The translations under genes were made by a program, and so were the position numbers. From the NCBI RefSeq assembly GCF_000160135.1, contig NZ_GG729934.1, positions 538,985-602,984 of the forward strand: DNA of 64,000 bases, written 5' to 3'. The stretch comes from Oribacterium sp. oral taxon 078 str. F0262 (GTDB lineage Bacteria > Bacillota > Clostridia > Lachnospirales > Lachnospiraceae). This document shows, in pieces, positions 11,174-22,129 of this stretch. Under the pieces are notes generated by a model. The model was not told the DNA's origin. It did no database searches and saw nothing but the letters and a program-made list of their open reading frames with translations. How positions within the stretch are numbered: the stretch's first letter is position 1; every line of letters begins with the position of its first letter.

Positions 11174-13489
11174 TCAGCCATATACCATGAAGTCCTCGGA
11201 GCTGACTCCGTCGTAAATGGAGCTGGCCTCCTCCGAGAGCTCCTCCTTCTCCCCATCCGCCCGATAGAGACAGAGCTTCCCGTGTCCGCTCTTCGTCCGA
11301 TAGTCGCCGATATAGGCAAAGCCCCCGTCCTTTAAGGGATAAAAGCTCTTTACCTCCTCCGCGGCGAGCACAGCCTTCCTCTTTCCCGGAAGGTAGATAT
11401 CAAAAAGCCCCCTTCCGTCCCACTCGCCAATGAGATAGACCCTGTCCTCCGAAATGTAGATCTTCTGAATGTCCGTCATGAGACGTTTTCCGGAGCAGTA
11501 GGCTGTTCCGCTCTCCTCTCTCTCCGCCTGATCCTTCATATAATAGATCTCCCCATCGCAAAATCCGTTGAGATCTGTGACATTTTGGTCCAGCCTCTTC
11601 ATCCCCGCGCTCTGCTTCTCCCAGAAAAGAAGCTCCATTTCTCCTTTTCTCGCTTCCAGGATACTTTTCTCCAGATCCGGATCCTCCTTCTCTTCCTCCC
11701 GAAGGGAGAGGGGAAAGCTGAGGCAGGCAAGTTTTCCGGAGTTTTCGGAGAAAATATCCTGAAGGATTCCCTCCTCCTCGATCTTCTCCTCCCTTCCCTC
11801 AAAGATGATCCGATAGCTCTGCCCCTGCAGGGCATCATAGAGGAGGCGGTCAGCGAGCCGCCGCGCGGCATAATAGGAGATCACGCTGTACTTCCAGCCG
11901 TTAAAGTCATCCTCGGAGATCTGCTCCTCCATCAAAAAGATCTCGCTTAGCGGGCTGCCGGAGATTCCGAAATAGTCATAGAAAAGGCATTCCAGATCGA
12001 TCCCTTCTCCCTCAGCCTCTCCGGGCCATCTTCCATAGACCTGAAAGAAGACCAGGCTGAGATACTCCTCATAGAGCTCCGAGAGCTTCCTTGTCCCCTG
12101 ATAGCCCTCCGCGATGCTGTGGAGCAAAAGGACCCTGTCCCCTCCCGTGATAAAGGGAAGCTCCGCCCGCTCTGAAAGGACTCTCAGCTCCTTCCCGTCA
12201 TAGAGGCAGGCATCTCCGTAGGAGCAGATCGCATAATGGCAGGCATCCTTCATGGACTGGACAAACTGATTCCAGAGATAAATCTCCATATAGCGATAGA
12301 GAGCGCTCCCCTCAGGAATCCTTTCCTTCCCATAGAGCCTTTCCCTCTCCTTAGCTCCGAGAGATGGAATCTCCGGAGAGTCCCTCCGGGACAGATCGTC
12401 CTCTGCGAGGAAATTGATCTCATCCGTCTTCTTTCTGATATAGCAAAGATTCCCCTCCGAATCGACCCTCACATAGATGAATTCCGCTCCGCCGTCGATC
12501 TGCTCCGGCTCCCCGAAGTTCTCGATCTTAAAAATCCTCTCCCCCTCATCCTCCTCTCTCCTCTCAGAGTAGTAGATTCTGTCCATGCTCTCGGAGCTCC
12601 CATAGAAGGTCCAGACTGCATCGCTGAGGCAGGAAAGCTTCCATTCCCCTCCCTCCTCTTTTTGCAAAGCGAAGAGCCGATCTGTCCAGCCGTCCGTGCC
12701 TTCCCCCTGATAGGCGAGAAAGAGAATCGTCTTTTCATCCTTACTCAGGAAATACGTGTGCGGTGTCCCGGAATAGAGCTTTTCCTTTTCCCCATCCGTA
12801 AAAAGATAGATCCCGCGGTTATTGCTCCTTATGTAGAGAAGGGAACCATCTGAGAGGAGCTGAAAGCTTTCCACTCCTTCCGCGATTTTTTTCACGGCGC
12901 TCTCCTCCCCGATCGTCTTCCTGCGGAGTATACCGTCGTGGAGATTTACGCCCGCGCAGCAGGCCTCCATCTCCGCCTCCCCCGACATTTCTTCCTCCCC
13001 CCAGGCCTCCTCCATAGACCCCTCTGTCTCCTTTACCAAAACCTCCGGGCTCTCATATTCGATATAATAGAGATATTTTCCATCCTCGGTATACTGCACG
13101 TCCTCTTGATCCATGTGATTCCAGCCATTCTCCCAGCTCCCCTCCTGTACCTCTTCACTCTTTCCCAAGCTCCGGGAATAAAGCCTCAGCCCATCCTTCG
13201 AAAAATATAAGACCCTCTCTTCTCCTTCCTCTCCCTCGAGCTTTTTCTTCTCTCTCTCCTTCTCCCCGCTGTCCCTTTCCCGCGCTCTCACCTTCGTCTC
13301 CTCCTCTTCCCTGTCCCCGCTCTTCCTCCTTCCCCTGATCCCCTCACAGGATGTGAGAGAAAGCAGCATGGTAAGACAAAGGAAAAAAGCGAGCAGTCCC
13401 CTGCTCCTCTCTCCCGATCGAAAAAATTTCCCAAAGCTCTTCCCCCAAAGCCTCATCTCTGCCTCCTCCCCGCGATGCGCTCCCTTCAT
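11174..13489 (-). CDS. Large acidic lipoprotein, function unknown
   Basis: 771 residues. The N-terminus has a membrane stretch (LLAFFLCLTMLLSLTSC) ending in a convincing lipobox, then a highly charged linker rich in Glu, Arg and Lys. The remainder contains repeated short beta-like units such as VLYFSKDGLRLYSR, YLYYIEYES and RIYYSERR. That pattern suggests a propeller-like fold, though no family is certain. Two starts have good ribosome binding sites: 13489 (GGAGGTGCAGC) and 13456 (GGAGGAGGCAGAG). Either gives an intact signal. The next gene begins two bases after the stop, so the two products probably work together at the membrane. Confidence 0.6.
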   Translation of the reverse strand: MKGAHRGEEAEMRLWGKSFGKFFRSGERSRGLLAFFLCLTMLLSLTSCEGIRGRRKSGDREEEETKVRARERDSGEKEREKKKLEGEEGEERVLYFSKDGLRLYSRSLGKSEEVQEGSWENGWNHMDQEDVQYTEDGKYLYYIEYESPEVLVKETEGSMEEAWGEEEMSGEAEMEACCAGVNLHDGILRRKTIGEESAVKKIAEGVESFQLLSDGSLLYIRSNNRGIYLFTDGEKEKLYSGTPHTYFLSKDEKTILFLAYQGEGTDGWTDRLFALQKEEGGEWKLSCLSDAVWTFYGSSESMDRIYYSERREEDEGERIFKIENFGEPEQIDGGAEFIYVRVDSEGNLCYIRKKTDEINFLAEDDLSRRDSPEIPSLGAKERERLYGKERIPEGSALYRYMEIYLWNQFVQSMKDACHYAICSYGDACLYDGKELRVLSERAELPFITGGDRVLLLHSIAEGYQGTRKLSELYEEYLSLVFFQVYGRWPGEAEGEGIDLECLFYDYFGISGSPLSEIFLMEEQISEDDFNGWKYSVISYYAARRLADRLLYDALQGQSYRIIFEGREEKIEEEGILQDIFSENSGKLACLSFPLSLREEEKEDPDLEKSILEARKGEMELLFWEKQSAGMKRLDQNVTDLNGFCDGEIYYMKDQAEREESGTAYCSGKRLMTDIQKIYISEDRVYLIGEWDGRGLFDIYLPGKRKAVLAAEEVKSFYPLKDGGFAYIGDYRTKSGHGKLCLYRADGEKEELSEEASSIYDGVSSEDFMVYG

Positions 13490-13860
13490 GCTGCACCTCC
13501 ATACTATGACTTTCAGTGGCTAAAAACTATTACCCGTCGGATAATTTTTCCCGAAAATCTGCCTTTTCAGGAGAAATAGGGCGCGCTTTTTCTCATGCGG
13601 GCAAAGCGCAGCGCGGAAGGAAAGCAGGCAGCCCATAGATATCGGGCCGAAGCTTTCGAATCCGCGTTCAGGGACGAAGAAAAGCTCTTAAATCCAATCC
13701 GGAGCTCCCGCTTCGATTCAGAATGCTCGGAGACGAGATAAAAGCAAATGAAAACAACGAAAGAAAGGCCCCCGGGGCTTTTGCTTACGCCCCGGAGGCC
13801 TCCCTCCTACTTAGACGGAAAGACTGACTCTCCGCCTACGATATTTCTCTCCTAAGAGAC
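13490..13860. other. Intergenic region with terminator, no gene seen
   Basis: 371 bases. It holds the terminator of the SipW-cargo gene to the right and, presumably, the promoter of the lipoprotein gene to the left. I see no convincing promoter hexamers, small gene or repeat in the rest. Confidence 0.5.
13763..13805 (-). terminator. Rho-independent terminator of the SipW-cargo cassette
   Basis: On the minus strand GGCCTCCGGGGC pairs with GCCCCGGGGGCC and is followed by TTTCTTTCGTTGTTTT. It closes the seven-gene cassette that begins at the histidine kinase. Confidence 0.8.
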
Positions 13861-14913
13861 TTAGTTTCCCTTGACCGATCCGGAATCCTTCTGATCCTTC
13901 TGTCCGCCATAGTTCTGGTTCTTCAGGATATTCGGCTTGCCCTCATCCTTTCCGACATTGAACTGATCCCAGAGGAAGTCGATTCCGATCTCAACACCCT
14001 TGTTCTGGCTCTTCGTATCGTCATTGTCCTTCTTCAGGTTCTCGGTGCTTCCCGTGGTGTAAGCGCCGTCCTTATCCGGATCCATGGCGATGCCGATGAA
14101 GACATCCATTCTGTTGTCCGTAGCCGGGCTGCAGAGGATGGTGGAGTTCTCGATGGCCTTCTTGATATCCTTCTCATCCAGCTTCTCAAGAGCGGAGAGT
14201 CTCAGGAAGTCAACGCCGCCGACCGTGAAGAAATCCTTGTCGGAAAGAGCAAGGTCCTTCGTAAGACGGAAGACATGAGCGTTGTTGATCGAGGACTTCG
14301 GGTTAAACTGCTCCTAATGCATATAGAGCGCGATACCGAGCATATCCTTCACGGTGCTGGCATCCCTGTCCTTGCTGGAAACGGTGAACTTCATGTTTCC
14401 AAGCTTCGCAGCGATGCTTCCGACATTCAGAAGATCAGAGCGGAAAGCCTGTGCGTAGCCGGGATACATCTCGTTGATCTTGATGTCGATCCTGTCGCTT
14501 CCGTTCGTATTGGCGGAATTGTAGGGGCCGACCTGCTTCTTCAGAGGAGCCGCATCCTTGAGCTTGGCGTCAAACTCGGTATTGCTGTAGCCCTTCTGGC
14601 GCTCCTTGTACTTCTCGATGCTTCCGTCCTTCGCGATCTTGTTGTACTGCGTTCCTCTCTCGAAGAAATCCGACTCGACATAGCCCTTGTCGATGCCGTC
14701 GACGATGGACCAGCCCTTCGCTCCGTCGGTGTTGATCTCATCGCTGTACTGCGCATAGAGTCCCAGATCTACGAACTTCATGCCGAACTCGCCGGTAGTT
14801 GCCTTCGTCGTGATGTTCAGCGTATCCGTCCAATAAGCATAGCCTGTTCCGCCGAGGATCAGGGACAGAGCGAGAATTCCGCCGATCAGCGACTTCTTTC
14901 CTACTTTCTTCAT
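13861..14913 (-). pseudogene. SipW-dependent (TasA/CalY-like) secreted protein split by an in-frame TAG
   Basis: Reading from ATG 14913 gives 199 residues, then TAG at 14314-14316. The same frame continues without another stop for 150 more codons to 13861. The N-terminus (KKSLIGGILALSLILGG, then TGYAYWTDTL) is the SipW-type signal seen in TasA and camelysin relatives. The downstream half is clearly protein-like (LTKDLALSDKDFFTVGG, then MDVFIGIAMDPDKDG), so the amber codon interrupts a gene of about 350 codons. The neighbourhood is CAT TAG GAG CAG. It may be a recent nonsense mutation, a sequencing error or, less likely, a suppressed codon, since TAG serves as a normal stop elsewhere in the window. 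ATG 14913 has AAAGGAG upstream. It is the last gene of the cassette. Confidence 0.8.
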
Positions 14914-15001
14914 TGGTGCTCCTTTCCTTCTTGTGCACGAAGCATTATGTAAATGTTCGTATTTAGTATAACTTTTTTTAGAAAAATTTCATCCCTCGTT
15001 C

Positions 15002-16192
15002 TCAGTGACTTTCCTGTTCCTTTTTCCCAATCTCATCTACACCTTTCGTTGTAGATGCTTCGGGGATTTCATAGCAGTAGTTCTCCTCTCCGTTTCGGAG
15101 AAGGAAACGTCTGCCAAGAGGCAGCCCTCTCTCATCGATACTGCAGGTCACAGGCTGTCTGAGCTCCTCAGAGAGGAGGAGAAGGCTGTCCATGTCCTGG
15201 AGGTAGCTGAGTCCTCTGGGAAGCTCCTCTTCCCCGGAGCGGAGCATGACGATGCGGCTTCCGTATTTCCTTAGGAAGGCGCGGAGCCTCAGCTCCTCCA
15301 CCTCTCCCTCATCCGGATCCCTCGTGAGGTAGAAGGTGAAAAGTCCCAGACCGACAGAGAGAAGTATGAGAAGCAGGGCGAGGGGCGTCCTCCCCTTCTC
15401 CGGCGGGACTTCCACTGCCCTCGTTTCGCTGAGCGCTCCGCTGTTCTGAACGGGCTCAGACTTTTTGATCATATAGAGGGCGCTGTCTGCATTCGGAAGA
15501 TTCAGCTTCTCACTGAATTCCTCCGTCTTTGGCTCCTGTCCCTCCGCCTCGATCTGGTAGCTTCCGCTGAAAAGGAGATAGGCCTCTTTTTCGGGACTCC
15601 CTCCGATCTCATTCTCGATCTCCGCGAAATGCCCCATGTATTCCTCGGGTCGGATCTGCACGGTATCATCTATGCCGCTCGCCCCCGCCCCGGCCGGGAT
15701 CTCTCCCTCCTTTATGGGGTAGCTCTTCATGTAGACCTGTTTCTTCTCCTCATTGACGAGGTAGCTGCCCTCCAGGACCGTAGAGATCGAATAATTTCCG
15801 TGGACGATCGCATTGAGCTCCCCTGCCCCGCTGAGCTTTGTGTGAAAGCTGGCTTCGATGTAGTCCGTGAGCTTTGCCGAATAGACGCGGTCCGCCTCCA
15901 GCCATTCCTCCGGATAGAGAGAATTCTCCTTGAGGTGAACCCGGTATTCGGAATCCGCAGAGAGCTCATAGGAAAAAAGCGGAACATCCTCCTGCTTCGT
16001 CTTCTTTTCCAGGAAGGCCAAAAGAAGGGAAATCCCGACCAGGAGAAGGACGGCAGAGAGAGCGAGAACTCCCATCCTCTTCCTCCTGCTCCACACCAGG
16101 ATCGGCTTTATCCTCCCCTCCTCTCCCTCTTTCTTCGGAGCGGCGCCCCCGTTCTCGGAATGCTTCACTACAGAATCCAGCTCTTTATTCAT
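15002..16192 (-). CDS. DUF5305-like membrane protein of the SipW cassette
   Basis: 396 residues. One membrane segment lies at about 41-60 (LALSAVLLLVGISLLLAF) and a second at about 270-290 (PLALLLILLSVGLGLFTF). Some 200 residues in between face outside, and a C-terminal cytoplasmic part of about 100 residues follows. The outer part (FSYELSADSEYRVHLKENSL, EASFHTKLSGAGE) recalls DUF5305 proteins, which occur next to signal peptidase I genes in Gram-positive bacteria and archaea. ATG 16192 overlaps the end of the peptidase gene by eight bases and has GGAGGAG upstream. An ATG farther upstream at 16297 lies within the peptidase gene. Function unknown; a partner in export or assembly is inferred from context. 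Confidence 0.7.
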   Translation of the reverse strand: MNKELDSVVKHSENGGAAPKKEGEEGRIKPILVWSRRKRMGVLALSAVLLLVGISLLLAFLEKKTKQEDVPLFSYELSADSEYRVHLKENSLYPEEWLEADRVYSAKLTDYIEASFHTKLSGAGELNAIVHGNYSISTVLEGSYLVNEEKKQVYMKSYPIKEGEIPAGAGASGIDDTVQIRPEEYMGHFAEIENEIGGSPEKEAYLLFSGSYQIEAEGQEPKTEEFSEKLNLPNADSALYMIKKSEPVQNSGALSETRAVEVPPEKGRTPLALLLILLSVGLGLFTFYLTRDPDEGEVEELRLRAFLRKYGSRIVMLRSGEEELPRGLSYLQDMDSLLLLSEELRQPVTCSIDERGLPLGRRFLLRNGEENYCYEIPEASTTKGVDEIGKKEQESH

Positions 16193-17522
16193 CTCCTCTG
16201 TTCTCTCCTCCTGCAATCCTTCCTTCCGACTGTTTGGAATCCGTCTCCTCCGCCTCCTTGCTTCCTCTCTTCTCTTCCTCTGATCTTCCTGTTTCAACGA
16301 CTCCCTCCGCTCTATTCTCTCCGCTGTGGAGAAGCAGCTGGTAGCTCCCGAGCTTCGGCAGCACCTTCACTACAGGTCCATTGATATCATTTGGCAGCAC
16401 CGCCTCCTGATCCTCAGAGACATTATTGTCTCCCTTTGTGATAAAGCTGAGGTTTCCGGCCGCATCCTTCTGAATCCGAAGAATGCGGTGTGTGATGACG
16501 ATGCCCTCCCTCCGGAAATTGATGATGTCCCCCTCCTGCAGCTGATCCAGCTCCGCTTCCGAATAAAAGCGCCGGATCAAAACGATATCCCCGGGCTTTA
16601 TCCCGGGCTCCATGCTCCCTGTCAGTATCGTGGAAGGGTAGATGGGAAAGACTCCGACACTGAACCAGTAAAACGCGGTGAGCAGGACCAGGGATATGAT
16701 ATAGGACGGCGAAAAGCCGTTCCGCCTGGCCGCCATCCTTCCATACTCCTCCCCTTCCTGCTCTTCTTTGATATAAAAAGCATAAAAGACAGGAAAGCAC
16801 AGCCCGATCGCAGACTCCGCAAGCCAGGGGAGTCCGGGAAGGACGGGGAAAAGTCTCTGAAAGAGCGCTATGGACGCCGCATAGAAGAGGGAGGCCGAAA
16901 GCCCTCCGTACAGAGAGAGGATCGTGAGCAGAAAGCCCTGGGCAAAGCTCGGCAGCACATGCTCCGTGATCTCAATGAAAATTTCCTTCTGCTCCGGAAG
17001 CTTTAAAAACTTGAGAACATTGATCTCTGTCGCCGCAAGGAGAAAGGTCAGAAGAAATATCAGCGCTTTCCGGTGCTTTGGTCTTCGGAGGATCACGGCG
17101 AGCGCATAGGCCCGGACAGCCTCCCGGAAAAAAAGCCGAAGCCCGACCAGCAGCACATTCTGCAAAATTCCCGAAGGACTGTGGTCATAGGGGGATTCCG
17201 CGAGCCTTCGGAGAAAGATCGAGAGCAGGAAGCGGATCGCAAGAAAGATCGCGGCCCCGGTGAAGGCATAGATCCTGACCCTGTCCTGAAGACCTCTCCG
17301 CCGCACGGCAAAGACCGGCGGAAAAACCGCAAATAGGAGGAAAATCATAGTCCCATAGAGAATGAGAAAGAGAATGATATCCCCGGAAACCCTGTCCCTC
17401 CAAAGCGGATTGTCCAAAAGGAGCTCCGTGAGCAGGAGAAAGAGTGCATAGAGCATATAGTTTTCTGCCCCCGGAATGCGTCTCCTCTCCCGTTCCCGGA
17501 TATAGGAAAGTATCTTTTCCAT
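16185..17522 (-). CDS. sipW-like: SipW-type signal peptidase I with large N-terminal membrane domain
   Basis: 445 residues. The catalytic part lies at about 275-400, with GSMEPGIKPGD giving nucleophile Ser303 and ITHRI giving His345. A histidine where most bacterial enzymes have lysine marks the SipW or ER type. The first 270 residues hold about seven or eight hydrophobic segments, which is far more than the one or two anchors of ordinary SipW. The C-terminal 50 residues are a charged tail. Three genes for proteins with SipW-type signals flank it, so it presumably matures them at the membrane. The membrane domain could be a scaffold or transporter-like module. The gene starts three bases after the preceding cargo gene. 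Confidence 0.88.
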   Translation of the reverse strand: MEKILSYIRERERRRIPGAENYMLYALFLLLTELLLDNPLWRDRVSGDIILFLILYGTMIFLLFAVFPPVFAVRRRGLQDRVRIYAFTGAAIFLAIRFLLSIFLRRLAESPYDHSPSGILQNVLLVGLRLFFREAVRAYALAVILRRPKHRKALIFLLTFLLAATEINVLKFLKLPEQKEIFIEITEHVLPSFAQGFLLTILSLYGGLSASLFYAASIALFQRLFPVLPGLPWLAESAIGLCFPVFYAFYIKEEQEGEEYGRMAARRNGFSPSYIISLVLLTAFYWFSVGVFPIYPSTILTGSMEPGIKPGDIVLIRRFYSEAELDQLQEGDIINFRREGIVITHRILRIQKDAAGNLSFITKGDNNVSEDQEAVLPNDINGPVVKVLPKLGSYQLLLHSGENRAEGVVETGRSEEEKRGSKEAEETDSKQSEGRIAGGENRGDE

Positions 17523-17525
17523 CTC

Positions 17526-18032
17526 TTACTGCTCTCCGTCTGCCGATGCGGTCTTTTCCTCTGTCCCGCTCTTCTCAGCCTCAGAAGGCAGTTCCTTCTC
17601 TTCCTTCTTTTCCGCAGTCTCTGCGCGGGTCTTTTCTTCCTTCTTTTCCGCGGTCTCCGCCTTTGTCTTTTCTTCCTTTGCCCCTGAAGTCTCTGCCTTT
17701 TCCGCTGAGGTCTCTGTCTTTGTCTCCGGGTTTTCCGCCGCCTTTTCCTTTGTCTCCTCTTCCGCTGCCCCGGCTTCCGTCTTCTGGGAGGCATCGGACT
17801 CCGACGGTGCACTGCTCTCCGACTCGGCTCCTGTCTTTTCGCCCTCTCCGGAGCTCTCCTCCCCTTCCTTACTTTCCTCCGTCTCCTCCTGCTCCTCGAT
17901 CTCGATCGGCAGGGGGTATGTCACCTTAAGCTCCGCCTTCATCTTAAGCTGCTCCGTCCAGTACGAATAGGCGGAAAAGCCCATGAACAGGCACAGCAGC
18001 ACGGAAAAGAAAATCAGTCTGAATCTTTTCAT
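17526..18032 (-). CDS. Small SipW-type secreted protein with Glu/Lys/Ala repeat tail
   Basis: 168 residues. The N-terminus (FRLIFFSVLLCLFMGFSAYSYW) is a SipW-type signal. After about 45 residues the protein becomes low-complexity and very acidic, with repeats such as AEKKEEKTRAET occurring in tandem near residues 120-155. This could be an unfolded spacer or a wall-spanning tail. The gene overlaps its upstream neighbour as ATGA and is followed after three bases by the signal peptidase gene. Nothing else identifies it. The tandem repeat makes it prone to length variation between strains. Confidence 0.7.
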   Translation of the reverse strand: MKRFRLIFFSVLLCLFMGFSAYSYWTEQLKMKAELKVTYPLPIEIEEQEETEESKEGEESSGEGEKTGAESESSAPSESDASQKTEAGAAEEETKEKAAENPETKTETSAEKAETSGAKEEKTKAETAEKKEEKTRAETAEKKEEKELPSEAEKSGTEEKTASADGEQ

Positions 18033-18766
18033 CTCTCCACCTCCTCAGCTTCCTTCTCCGCATTCGCCTGATCCAGCCGGATCGGAACCTCCAGAGAATA
18101 GACAACCTGAATTCCCTCCTCCATGGGCCCCGCGTCTCCGATAATCGGAATCTTCGCGAGCTTCCCTCTCTTTATCTTCAATTCCTCAGGCATCCCCTCC
18201 AAAAGCCCCTCACTCTGCGGCTTCAGGTAGAGCTTCGCCCTGAGCTCTCCGTCCTCGCTCTCCTCTACCGCCCGGTAGACAGCAAGCACAAGAGGTTTTT
18301 TGAAGAAATCATCCGCCTCATCAAAGCGGTATAGTGTCCCCTCCGCGGAAAGAAAGACATCCTTTGGCTCCAGCGTGAGCTCCTGCTCCGCCTCCTTTGT
18401 GAAATCCGCTTCCGTAAGCCGAACCACGGTTCCGTTCTTTTCGATGGGATAGCTCAAACAGAGATAATTTCCCTCCGCGAGGAGCTCCATCGGAAGGCCC
18501 TCCCGGAAGCTGATCTCCGCCGTGGTCCGATTGTCCGTCGTCTTCCAGTCCGATGCTATCGACTGAAGCTCATTTCCCGCCTCATCCACGATCTCCGCGG
18601 AGCAATCTCCCTTCTGAGAGAAGAAATGCTTGAACTTCCCGGTCGCAAGCTCCATGGAGATGCTCTGTTCCCTGTTCCAGCTGGCATAGCCGTGCCCGAT
18701 TCCCGCCATTGCGAGGAGCAAAATCCCTGCCAACAGCATATTTCTCTTTGATCCGCGCATTTTCAT
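18029..18766 (-). CDS. SipW-type secreted protein
   Basis: 245 residues. It begins MKMRGSKRNMLLAGILLLAM with GIGHGYASW at the cleavage region, the same signal style as its two cluster partners. The mature part is beta-rich looking (SISMELATGKFKHFF, LTLEPKDVFLSAEGTLYRF, VYSLEVPIRLDQ) and about 210 residues long, the size of TasA/CalY-type fibre proteins. No catalytic motif is seen. ATG 18766 overlaps the response-regulator stop as ATGA. The frame is open upstream but lies wholly inside that gene. Confidence 0.75.
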   Translation of the reverse strand: MKMRGSKRNMLLAGILLLAMAGIGHGYASWNREQSISMELATGKFKHFFSQKGDCSAEIVDEAGNELQSIASDWKTTDNRTTAEISFREGLPMELLAEGNYLCLSYPIEKNGTVVRLTEADFTKEAEQELTLEPKDVFLSAEGTLYRFDEADDFFKKPLVLAVYRAVEESEDGELRAKLYLKPQSEGLLEGMPEELKIKRGKLAKIPIIGDAGPMEEGIQVVYSLEVPIRLDQANAEKEAEEVER

Positions 18767-19425
18767 CTCTCTTCTCCCTTCGGCTGCGGCCCCGGCCGCT
18801 TCCCCCTGTTCTTCTCCGTCAGATATCCCTTCTGTCCCGACTGTATGACAGCCTCCACCCGGTTCTTCGAACCCAGCTTCGAAAGGATATTGCTGACATG
18901 CCTTTTTGCGGTCCCCTCTGTGATGAAAAGCCTGGCGCTGATCTCCAGATTCGTGTAGCCCTGGCACATCAGCTCATAGACCTCTCTCTCCCGTTCCGTC
19001 AAGGTCCCGAGCTTCTTTTCCTCCTCGCTCAGCCTGGGATCCACCAGGGCCGCGGAATAGAATTTCCCGCCCCGCTCCACGGATTTCAGGCAAAATACGA
19101 TCTCGTCAATGAAGGCGTCCTTCAGGAGATAGGCGTCCACACCGAGGGCCTTCGCCTCTCGGAAATCCGAGTCCCTGGAGGAGGAGGTGATGAGAATCGT
19201 CCGGATCTCCGGCTTCCTCTCATGGACCTTCCTCAGAAAATCAAAGCCGCTCTCTCCATTCAGCTTGAGATCCACAAATGCCAGATCGATCTTCTCTCTC
19301 TGCACACAGTCCATCGCCTCCTGAACCGTGCCCGCCTCGATGACCTCTTCCTCGGGGCGCGTCATATGAATCACAGCCTTTAATCCCATCCTGGAAACCG
19401 GGTGGTCATCCAAAACCAGAAACAT
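18763..19425 (-). CDS. NarL/LuxR-family response regulator
   Basis: 220 residues. Receiver domain 1-120 with acidic pocket LDDHP, phospho-acceptor aspartate in LAFVDLKL (about residue 52), TSSS and the late lysine in LLKDAF. The C-terminal LuxR helix-turn-helix spans about 140-200 (LTEREREVYELMCQGYTN, then ISARLFITEGTAKRHVSNI). It pairs with the kinase upstream, sharing one base (TGATG), and sits directly before the SipW-cargo genes, which are its likely targets. A TTG just upstream could also start it, but the ATG at 19425 has AGGAGG at better spacing. Confidence 0.92.
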   Translation of the reverse strand: MFLVLDDHPVSRMGLKAVIHMTRPEEEVIEAGTVQEAMDCVQREKIDLAFVDLKLNGESGFDFLRKVHERKPEIRTILITSSSRDSDFREAKALGVDAYLLKDAFIDEIVFCLKSVERGGKFYSAALVDPRLSEEEKKLGTLTEREREVYELMCQGYTNLEISARLFITEGTAKRHVSNILSKLGSKNRVEAVIQSGQKGYLTEKNRGKRPGPQPKGEER

Positions 19426-21077
19426 CAAATCCTCCTAGCCCCGAGCGGCAGCTTTAAAAGAACTCTGACTCCGTGTCCCTCCCGGTCTGAGATACTCAGC
19501 CTCCCCTTAAGGAGAGAGGCCAGATAGTACATATTCTTCATGCCCTGCCCCTCAAAGGGACGGCGCGATGTCTCCTCCTGGAAGCCGCTTCCGTCATCCT
19601 CGACCAGCATATTGATGCTCTCCTCACTTTTTTCCAGGCGGAGAAGAAGCTCATGTGCTCCCCCGTGGCGGACCGCATTGTTTGCCGCCTCGCAGGCAAC
19701 GCGGTAGAGCACAATCTTCTGAGCGGAGCCAAGCTCCTCCTCGGAGATTTCATTCTCCAGACGGACCCGGACCCCGCTGTGATTCTTCTCGATGCCCTCC
19801 ATATAGGAAACAAGGCTTTTCTCAAAGCTGTGCTCCCCTCCCCTTTCGAACTGCCGCCCGTAGATCGCCTCCCGAAGCTCCGTCATCGTACTGCCCGCGG
19901 AGTTTTGCAGGGAGAGAAGCTCCGAGCGAAGCTCCTCCTCTCCCAGGCTGCCAAGCCGCATGCTGAGGCTCTTCAGCTGACAGGCCATGCCGAAAATCTT
20001 CTGGAGGACCGTATCGTGGATCTCATCCGCGATGCGGTTCTTCTCCTCTGCGGAGATAAAGGACTCGATCTGGCTCTGGGTATCCAGAGCCCGGAAGATA
20101 CTCTCCGAGAGCTGGATATAGAAATCCCTCTCCCGCCCCTCCACGATATGATTTACATCCCTGGAGAGGAGAAGGTATACCCTGGAGCTCTGAAGCTCTG
20201 TCAGGAGGAGAACCTCATAGGCGACACCGCCCGCGAGTATCCCAAAGCATCCCTCCCTCGGGAGATCCCCGGCCGGATTCTTCCGATCCGGCCAGAGGAG
20301 CCTGCTTTTTTTAATGATCTCCTGCTCCTGCTCATCCGTGAGACCGCTGGCGATCACCTGCTTCACAGAACCGTCCGCCCAGCGCTCAAAAATGACGCAG
20401 CCCTGCGGAGAGATACTGTTCGTCATGAGCTCGGCGAGCTGACGGATGATGCCCTCCGGCTCCACCCTGGCCATCAGCCCGAAGCCCTTATACATATTGC
20501 TGAGCTGGTGGAGCGCATACTCGCTCCTCCGGTTCTCCTCCGCGAGACGCTCATTCAGCCTGCCGAGCTCCGCCCTCTCCTCCCACAGCATGCGGACATA
20601 GCTTCTCAACACAAAAAAGCCGCCGCTCACAAGGATCAGGCCGATCACCAGATTGAATTTAAGATGCTCCGGCTTCGTGCCGCTCCTGCTGAGAAGCCCG
20701 CAGAGCAGACACCAAAGCAGTGCGGCTATGGCCGATCCCGTGCCATTTTTCCCCCGAAGGGTAATGAGGATGCAGCCAAGATAATACCAGATATATGAGC
20801 TCGCCAGGCCTCCGCTGAGATAGATGAACTCTCCATAGGCCAAAAGCTCCAGCACTAAAATCACATTTGTGAGAAAACGATTTCCCTTGGCCTTCAGATA
20901 AAGGAAGTTCGCCATCGCACAGGAAACCGCCATGCCCAGGACGATGCTCCAGCTGGCCGAGCTGTACTCCCGGTAAAGCAGTGAGCTTAGGAGATAGGCA
21001 CTGGTCGAAAGAACAAGCGTCACCGCCCTGTAGAAAAGACAAATACTGAGATATTCGCTTTCCTCCGTCCTCTGCAT
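19425..21077 (-). CDS. Sensor histidine kinase, HisKA_3 / NarL-partner type
   Basis: About 550 residues. Five or six hydrophobic segments occupy the first 165 residues (AVTLVLSTSAYLLSSLL, IYLSGGLASSYIWYYLGC, LVIGLILVSGGFFVL). A linker and a GAF-like region (about 200-330) follow. Then comes the phospho-accepting histidine in IADEIHDTVLQKIFG and a HATPase_c domain (ACEAANNAVRHGG, VEDDGSGF, GQGMKNM). This layout matches LiaS/DegS-type kinases that signal to NarL-type regulators. ATG 21077 is preferred because the ATG at 21131 has no ribosome binding site. It is the first gene of the cassette and so may control export and matrix genes in response to an envelope cue. The cue is not known. Confidence 0.9.
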   Translation of the reverse strand: MQRTEESEYLSICLFYRAVTLVLSTSAYLLSSLLYREYSSASWSIVLGMAVSCAMANFLYLKAKGNRFLTNVILVLELLAYGEFIYLSGGLASSYIWYYLGCILITLRGKNGTGSAIAALLWCLLCGLLSRSGTKPEHLKFNLVIGLILVSGGFFVLRSYVRMLWEERAELGRLNERLAEENRRSEYALHQLSNMYKGFGLMARVEPEGIIRQLAELMTNSISPQGCVIFERWADGSVKQVIASGLTDEQEQEIIKKSRLLWPDRKNPAGDLPREGCFGILAGGVAYEVLLLTELQSSRVYLLLSRDVNHIVEGRERDFYIQLSESIFRALDTQSQIESFISAEEKNRIADEIHDTVLQKIFGMACQLKSLSMRLGSLGEEELRSELLSLQNSAGSTMTELREAIYGRQFERGGEHSFEKSLVSYMEGIEKNHSGVRVRLENEISEEELGSAQKIVLYRVACEAANNAVRHGGAHELLLRLEKSEESINMLVEDDGSGFQEETSRRPFEGQGMKNMYYLASLLKGRLSISDREGHGVRVLLKLPLGARRI

Positions 21078-21185
21078 TTTTGCACCCCTGCCGCCCTCTT
21101 CCCCCGGCCCGTCCTGAAACATTCCTATCATAACAGAAAAATCTATTTTTATGTTATTACATTTTTTTAAATTTTCACAATATAT

Positions 21186-22076
21186 TTAAAGATAATTAAG
21201 AATATTCCTTCGAATATTCTCCATCGGCATTTCTCTCCCGCACCAAAGCCGGAATGCCTCCGCCCCCTGAAAGAGGAGCATGGGAAGGCCGTTTACCGTC
21301 CGAAGTCCCCTCTCCTCGGCGAGCCGAAGAAGCTTCGTCTTTCTCGGAGAGTAGATCACATCGGCTACCGTAAGCCCCTCCGGAAAGAAGGAGCTGTCCT
21401 CGATGAGAGAGCGCTCCTTATCCGGTGCCATGCCGACGCTGGATGCATTGACCAGGATATCGCAGTCGGAGAGCTCCCGGTAGAGCGCCTCCCCGTACTC
21501 CAGGAGGGAGAAGATACAGGAGCTCCTTTTTCGAAGCGATGCGAGAATCCGCCGAATCCTCGGAAGATCACGACTCCCCCTTCGGACAAAGAGGGAGAGT
21601 TCCCGGACGCCGGAGAGCGCGGCCTGGACGAGGATCGCAGTCCCCGCTCCGCCCGCGCCAAGCAGCACGAGCTTTTTCCCGCGGTACGAAATCCCCTCGC
21701 TCTCAAGGCCTCGGAAAAAGCCGCTTCCGTCCGTACTGTGTCCCTCTATCCTTCTATCCTCCGAAAAGACGACGGTATTCACAGATTCCGAGATCTCCGC
21801 GGCCTCTGAAAGCGTGTCGCAGAGCGGAAGGACGCTCCGTTTCAGGGGCATCGTGAGGTTCAGCCCCCGGGCCCCCATCCTGCGGAGCGCATCCAGCACA
21901 AAGGTGAGGTCCTCCGTCTTCACATCGAAGGCAAGATAGACATAGTCAAGCCCCAGTTCCCGGAAAGCGCCGTTATGGATCCGGGGAGAAAGGCTGTGCG
22001 AAACCGGAGACCCCAGAAGGCAGATCAATTTTGTGCTCCCGCTGATCTCGAAAATCTGATCCTCCTTCTCTCTCAT
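21186..22076 (-). CDS. aroE: Shikimate dehydrogenase
   Basis: 296 residues. AroE reduces 3-dehydroshikimate with NADPH in aromatic amino-acid synthesis. The substrate-binding part is at the N-terminus (LLGSPVSHSLSPRIHN, LNLTMPLK with the catalytic lysine). The NADPH-binding part follows (VLLGAGGAGTAI, NASSVGMAP, DVIYSPRKTKLL, GLPMLLFQGAEAF). The ATG at 22076 has AGGAAAGG upstream; the frame extends to 22103 but without a better site. aroA, another step of the same pathway, lies 20 kb away in a different operon. Confidence 0.94.
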   Translation of the reverse strand: MREKEDQIFEISGSTKLICLLGSPVSHSLSPRIHNGAFRELGLDYVYLAFDVKTEDLTFVLDALRRMGARGLNLTMPLKRSVLPLCDTLSEAAEISESVNTVVFSEDRRIEGHSTDGSGFFRGLESEGISYRGKKLVLLGAGGAGTAILVQAALSGVRELSLFVRRGSRDLPRIRRILASLRKRSSCIFSLLEYGEALYRELSDCDILVNASSVGMAPDKERSLIEDSSFFPEGLTVADVIYSPRKTKLLRLAEERGLRTVNGLPMLLFQGAEAFRLWCGREMPMENIRRNILNYL

Positions 22077-22129
22077 AGCCTTTCCTCTCTCCCCCTGGCC
22101 CACTTCTCTGTCCCGCTCCCATGTCTCAC

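Follow-up and report, generated by a model that had tools for sequence, protein, structure and literature searches.

A seven-gene cassette was analyzed in a 64,000-nt stretch of the genome of Oribacterium sp. oral taxon 078 str. F0262 (contig NZ_GG729934.1, positions 538,985 to 602,984). This whole stretch is called the window, and all coordinates follow its numbering. The cassette is located on the minus strand in the order kinase, LuxR-type regulator, cargo 1, cargo 2, SipW-type peptidase, DUF5305 protein and cargo 3, the cargos being the proteins with a SipW-type signal. It probably encodes a donor-strand filament system of the SipW-TasA kind that is self-contained and includes a two-component switch. 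The following features were assigned:

19425-21131, minus strand: sensor histidine kinase with HisKA_3 (PF07730, 44.3 bits) and HATPase_c (PF02518, 36.3 bits) domains, both over the Pfam cut-off
18763-19425, minus strand: response regulator with receiver (PF00072, 68 bits) and LuxR/GerE DNA-binding (PF00196, 60.8 bits) domains
18029-18766, minus strand: cargo 1, SipW-type signal ending in GYASW (by eye) and secreted domain, with a homologue in the same-genus locus L009 (E 2e-30)
17526-18032, minus strand: cargo 2, SipW-type signal ending in YSYW (by eye), short strand-like segment and Glu/Lys/Ser-rich tail
16185-17522, minus strand: SipW/SEC11-type signal peptidase (TIGR02228, 78 bits, cut-off 51.85)
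15002-16192, minus strand: DUF5305 protein (PF17231, 81.3 bits, cut-off 29)
14314-14913, minus strand: cargo 3, the 199 amino acids (aa) read from the ATG, with SipW-type signal (TIGR04088) and the first part of a predicted TasA-like domain
14314-14316, minus strand: in-frame TAG, seen in the sequence, interrupting cargo 3 at codon 200
13861-14313, minus strand: cargo 3 frame beyond the TAG, still similar to its relatives
13767-13800, minus strand: intrinsic terminator stem-loop, a GC-rich stem followed by a T-rich run

Four junctions show stop/start overlaps of 1 to 8 nt. Kinase and regulator overlap by 1 nt (TGATG), regulator and cargo 1 as well as cargo 1 and cargo 2 by 4 nt each (ATGA), and the peptidase and DUF5305 genes by 8 nt. 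Cargo 2 and the peptidase gene are separated by 3 nt, and the last gap, between the DUF5305 gene and cargo 3, comprises 88 nt. The 121-nt terminator stretch folds with -58.7 kcal/mol compared to a mean of -36.3 kcal/mol for shuffled sequences (z -5.9), and none of the 200 shuffles was equally stable. Gene order, mostly overlapping junctions and a strong terminator, all of which had been reported in a first-pass annotation made from the sequence alone, are real. The cassette end at 21077 given there does lie in the kinase gene but corresponds to a later in-frame start, since the kinase open reading frame (ORF) runs to 21131. The N-terminal part of the kinase is hydrophobic (by eye). HisKA_3 kinase and receiver-GerE regulator fit, according to Pfam, a two-component system of the NarL/LuxR type.

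Conservation of the cassette

A DUF5305 protein like that of the window was found in 7 of 145 searched genomes, its own included, and in only one (G005, carrying locus L009) of 16 genomes of the same genus. L009 and L010, a locus of a same-family genome, contain the functions in the order of the window, except that cargos 1 and 2 are encoded by one ORF in L010. This ORF (L010:11697-12614; the locus is identical to L015) carries a second SipW-like motif inside and may be either a fusion or the result of a frame error. A kinase homologue is located directly ahead of the regulator in L009, L010, L011 and L013. The flanking genes differ among the window, L009 and L010. In the window these are aroE (21186-22103) on one side and, downstream of the cassette, a gene coding for 771 aa (11174-13489) without a Pfam or NCBIfam match at E ≤ 0.1. 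The aroE gene, taken as a landmark for a possible empty site, was found in 12 of the 13 same-genus genomes examined out of the 16, and it lies far from the cassette in the genome of L009.

A scan with a single peptidase sequence as query found nothing, and a genome scan with a peptidase alignment yielded 65 loci. Their neighboring genes were scored with profiles derived from the loci found first, and the cargos by signal pattern. The DUF5305 gene lies beside the peptidase gene in 62 of the 65 loci; the other three loci end 62, 1762 and 757 bases past the peptidase. A SipW cargo was present in 62 loci, at least two cargos in 54, the regulator in 51 and the kinase in 45. Kinase, regulator, cargo and DUF5305 protein occur together in 42 of the 65 loci, and in 40 of the 48 whose flanks reach 4.5 kb or more on each side. 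The 65 loci are partly dependent: L016 to L018, which score almost equally, belong to one genus, the cargo 3 sequences of L034 and L043 hardly differ, and three loci (L015, L058 and L078) come from genomes already used for profile building.

Because these loci had been found by means of the peptidase, a reverse search starting from DUF5305 was performed. A DUF5305 protein over the Pfam cut-off is encoded in 21 of 392 genomes of the order, 25 of 391 of the class and 25 of 299 of the phylum (own genome included each time). Counting one locus per genome with about 1.5 kb of flank and excluding the own genome, the peptidase was present in 15 of 20 (order), 14 of 24 (class) and 15 of 24 loci (phylum), and peptidase or SipW cargo in 17 of 20, 21 of 24 and 20 of 24, in total 58 of 68, where some genomes may recur among the 65 peptidase loci. 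Four of the first 20 loci (L083, L087, L089, L099) come from profile-building genomes; without them the values are 13 of 16 and 14 of 16. The sequence comparison gives good support to conservation of the cassette as one unit across further genera and orders, with similar sets in many Clostridia and one Halobacillus.

In four loci, L011, L013 (identical to L058), L033 and L045, the cassette is joined by genes for an LPXTG protein and a sortase and by a transglutaminase-like gene, which might point to wall anchoring of the filament in this subgroup. The system of the window was not classified as a sortase pilus, because these genes lie beside the cassette of some relatives and none of them is part of the window's cassette.

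Peptidase, DUF5305 protein and cargo proteins

The peptidase encoded beside the cargo genes is a dedicated enzyme of the endoplasmic reticulum/SipW (Ser/His) type. Among the signal peptidase models, TIGR02228 of the archaeal type fits it best, its own profile matches SEC11A/C (E 5e-20), and Ser303 and His345 are found in 65 of 65 aligned sequences. It stays below the cut-off of the Bacillus SipW equivalog NF046067 (62.2 vs. 190 bits). Whereas SipW of Bacillus subtilis is short, the cassette peptidase carries about seven extra N-terminal hydrophobic segments ahead of the usual one. In L030, L031 and L076 a second, smaller peptidase-like ORF (164 to 200 aa) was observed close to the cassette.

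PF17231 was detected at E ≤ 0.01 in all 59 aligned DUF5305 proteins. The peptidase and the DUF5305-like partner of the first-pass annotation were both confirmed. The structural model of the DUF5305 protein (pLDDT, the predicted local distance difference test, 89.8) consists of a helix (residues 37-62), a beta-sandwich (66-262), a second helix (269-290) and a C-terminal alpha/beta domain reaching residue 396. Both helices may cross the membrane, with the sandwich outside. Structure comparison revealed a resemblance of the sandwich to common immunoglobulin (Ig)-like or arrestin-like domains. No paper naming DUF5305 was found in an open-access literature search. Weaker DUF5305 proteins were observed in L143, L144, L145, L173 and L174 beside a kinase-like gene and without a peptidase within the 1.5-kb flanks; these perhaps represent another use of the family.

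Of the three SipW-type secreted proteins proposed at first pass, only cargo 3 passes the curated signal model TIGR04088 (22.5 bits for the 199-aa part, cut-off 19). Cargos 1 and 2 gave no TIGR04088 match, and their SipW-type motifs were recognized by eye only. Among the relatives of cargo 3, 14 of 16 match the model at E ≤ 0.01, with L015 itself just below the cut-off (18.4 bits). A C-terminal QFN-like motif occurs in 63 of 190 cargos and was not used as evidence.

The mature part of cargo 2 starts with the short segment TEQLKMKAELKV. An ORF is located directly 5′ of the peptidase gene in 58 of 67 loci (window and L009 counted), and a signal ending in W could be placed in 46 of these 58. The tail is poor in strand-forming residues in 35 of the 46 proteins and in 3 of 91 cargo-3-like proteins, where the two sets partly overlap in members and the threshold was picked after viewing the sequences. 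The gene ahead of that of the peptidase mostly codes for a signal followed by a short strand-like stretch and a tail that looks disordered. Due to this build and to the situation in B. subtilis, where tapA lies ahead of sipW and the N-terminus of TapA is like the donor strand of TasA (PMC10151520), cargo 2 may be a TapA-like starter without folded domain. A construct secreting just TapA residues 44-57 supports biofilm in B. subtilis (PMC10151520).

For a modelled relative of cargo 3 the TasA fibre was the best solved structural match, the model being moderate, and the Pyrobaculum bundling pili (7ueg) and the Sulfolobus thread (7pnb) are among the top five. This points to a main subunit with the TasA-like fold which had been expected of the cargos. 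The 199-aa part stays below the cut-off of the BsaA family TIGR04090 (12.6 vs. 60 bits), and 4 of 16 intact relatives match this family at E ≤ 0.01 (best 2.7e-4), so that cargo 3 and BsaA may be distant kin.

The TAG at codon 200 of cargo 3 had been missed at first pass. The full frame comprises 350 codons with the final TAA as codon 351, leaving 150 codons after the TAG. Identity to L009 amounts to 71.9% (141/196) before and 64.1% (84/131) after the TAG, the latter part is 59.6% identical to L010, and the GC content at third codon positions is 0.75 on both sides. No stop is present at this position in 16 aligned copies and in L009; a 17th copy, L026, is split by an assembly N gap and was excluded from the alignment. 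A general recoding of TAG was rejected, as it ends 14 of 57 ORFs of the window (called mechanically, non-overlapping, at least 100 aa). For pyrrolysine, the sole match of the genome to the pyrrolysyl-tRNA synthetase model is below the cut-off; 13 of 14 control genomes also give a match, one of them over the cut-off.

Inverted repeat upstream of the cargo genes

A 16-bp inverted repeat with the consensus TACYACTTTMGTRGTA, first noticed by eye in upstream sequences, precedes cargo genes in relatives. With up to two mismatches, 53 sites were found in 66 loci compared to 8 in one shuffle. Of the 53 sites, 42 are no more than 260 bp ahead of a SipW cargo, a space comprising 4.7% of the bases, whereas 60 permuted palindromes gave a mean of 0.5 and a maximum of 3 there. 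Since the motif had been drawn by eye, sites were recounted in 41 loci whose upstream sequence was unseen when the motif was fixed: 22 of 32 sites fall into 4.6% of the bases (p 1.6e-22), and the repeat is present in 21 of the 41 loci at a median distance of 159 bp to the cargo (20 with measured distance). Among full-flank loci it occurs in 30 of 42 with the regulator and in 0 of 7 without it (p 6e-4); the seven include three Defluviitaleaceae, whose relatedness may contribute. The switching by the built-in two-component system suggested at first pass gains support from this shared repeat, which goes with the regulator in the full-flank loci and may be bound by it. The perfect form of the repeat, searched as letters, gave no match in the open-access literature.

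In the window no TACYACTTTMGTRGTA site with up to two mismatches was detected. Two weaker features were found between the peptidase gene and cargo 3:

15038-15053, no strand assigned: weak repeat copy TACACCTTTCGTTGTA with three mismatches, 125-140 bp before the start of cargo 3
14965-14992, minus strand: possible promoter of cargo 3, ATGAAA-16-TATACT

Promoter-like sites are no more frequent in this region than chance predicts (2 found, 2.6 expected). With up to three mismatches the repeat has 20 places in the whole genome and is not enriched there, since a reversed control pattern has 133. The genome's only place with two mismatches (L181, G000:C11:656500-661500) lies in an unrelated region and looks fortuitous; there, two neighboring ORFs that agree in all of their first 70 residues and look transposase-like stand beside a gene that looks conjugation-like (both by eye).

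Proposed mechanism, alternatives and known systems

In the proposed filament system the kinase would sense a signal and phosphorylate the LuxR-type regulator, which would bind TACYACTTTMGTRGTA and activate the cargo genes. Their products would be exported via Sec, and the peptidase with its multiple membrane passes would cut their signals, thereby freeing N-terminal strands. Like TapA, cargo 2 would supply the first donor strand. Cargo 3 would be the main subunit and polymerize through donor-strand exchange, and cargo 1 would be a minor subunit. For DUF5305 in the membrane, the guesses are an anchor, an assembly platform or a monitor of the filament base, in this order of preference.

Several findings weigh against this proposal. 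The gene of the main subunit is interrupted in the window's genome and the repeat copy is degenerate, which is why the window's copy of the cassette may not make full fibres. The repeat is missing in 12 of the 42 full-flank loci with a regulator, and without the flank condition its link to the regulator is not significant (34/53 vs. 5/13, p 0.12), in part since the regulator is hidden where contigs are short. Cargo 1 has no Pfam family over the cut-off, the cargo 3 relative matches the fold moderately, and no function follows from a common fold.

Due to the interruption of cargo 3, the window's own copy is probably impaired, unless the TAG is an assembly error. It is a serious possibility that the cassette is decaying in this genome, with cargo 3 as a pseudogene and the intact upstream genes as leftovers, which would be compatible with filament formation in the relatives. 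Besides the TAG, which is hardly reassigned given its frequent use as a stop in the window, the synthetase match below the cut-off and the degenerate repeat fit such a decay, but the other six genes are all open, the frame beyond the TAG is still coding-like in identity and third-position GC content, and a single-base assembly error may have created the stop.

The repeat could also fold in RNA, as a hairpin, or be the site of another regulator. The incomplete overlap of repeat and regulator and the small, partly related set of seven regulator-less loci would allow this, but it is unlikely in view of the full-flank loci, which show the repeat only together with the regulator gene, and of its promoter-like distance in the unseen loci.

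It is still less probable that the cassette encodes secreted TasA/camelysin-like surface proteins acting as monomers, adhesins or proteases without forming filaments. Adhesion or enzyme activity is unreadable from sequence, and the missing family of cargo 1 and the moderate fold match agree with this explanation. However, the best structural matches are filament subunits, cargo 2 looks built mainly for strand donation, and the 199-aa part of cargo 3 remains below the camelysin/Peptidase_M73 cut-off (PF12389, 15.7 vs. 22.5 bits). No match to PF12389 at E ≤ 0.001 was found in the genome, and two intact cargo 3 relatives have no Pfam match at E ≤ 0.01. A read-through of the TAG, or its use to produce a short and a long cargo 3, is very improbable: the coding-like sequence beyond it would fit, but the frame is open at this position in the 16 aligned copies and L009.

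The proposed filament system shares with the tapA-sipW-tasA operon of B. subtilis the dedicated SipW peptidase, a main subunit of the TasA fold and the position of the starter gene immediately ahead of that of the peptidase (PMC10151520, PMC9674648). It differs in the proposed starter, in which no folded domain is visible, while TapA contains an Ig fold (PMC10151520), and in the built-in DUF5305 protein and two-component pair, the B. subtilis operon being under SinR (PMC9674648). Built-in control is not new in principle, because the sipW-bsaABCRSD operon of Clostridium perfringens has its own sensor kinase and response regulator (BsaR/BsaS), which are required for sipW-bsaA expression, and purified BsaR binds the sipW promoter (PMC7395162). 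BsaA forms extracellular polymers (PMC7395162), but cargo 3 fails the BsaA model, with weak matches in a quarter of its relatives. In the BsaA-type loci used for the comparison, L120, L121 and L122, the peptidase ORFs comprise 126 to 189 aa and no DUF5305 or kinase profile match was found; a single weak match to the regulator (29.9 bits) lies at a distance of about 4 kb in L122.

By its description, the TasA/CalY/CapP system of Bacillus cereus is similar in its sortase-independent filament assembly with a chaperone-like helper, and its abstract mentions neither DUF5305 nor a two-component pair (PMC13082335). The likeness to archaeal donor-strand filaments (7ueg, 7pnb) comes from the structural matches and the archaeal-type peptidase model. 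For the Sulfolobus thread, a putative cap protein has been proposed which can donate a strand and has no acceptor site (PMC9715654). No description of the multi-pass peptidase, of DUF5305 in the role of a constant partner, of the strand-plus-tail protein or of the repeat was found in open-access literature searches. The cassette is a conserved, apparently undescribed variant of the SipW-TasA filament systems, for which the support is good as regards the unit and fair as regards filament making. Overall, the observations of the first-pass annotation were partly confirmed. Two outcomes named there as refuting, a lack of conservation as a unit and a missing TasA-like fold (examined in the cargo 3 relative), were not seen, and its interpretation is supported, with fibre formation, adhesion and cleavage as predictions from sequence.

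A joint reading, which is tentative and rather doubtful, would see DUF5305 and the multi-pass peptidase as a membrane assembly platform for Gram-positive donor-strand filaments. The peptidase would free the strands there, the strand-plus-tail protein would start the filament, DUF5305 would hold its base and report via its C-terminal domain, and the regulator would act through the TACYACTTTMGTRGTA operator. If true, this would describe a widespread filament machine and a role for DUF5305, a family of unknown function. If the strand-plus-tail protein is the starter, it would be a natural minimal version of TapA, and the repeat is a concrete candidate operator which makes the switch testable. The cassette gives DUF5305 a functional context, and with it the picture of TasA-like filaments under regulation takes in many Clostridia and one Halobacillus.

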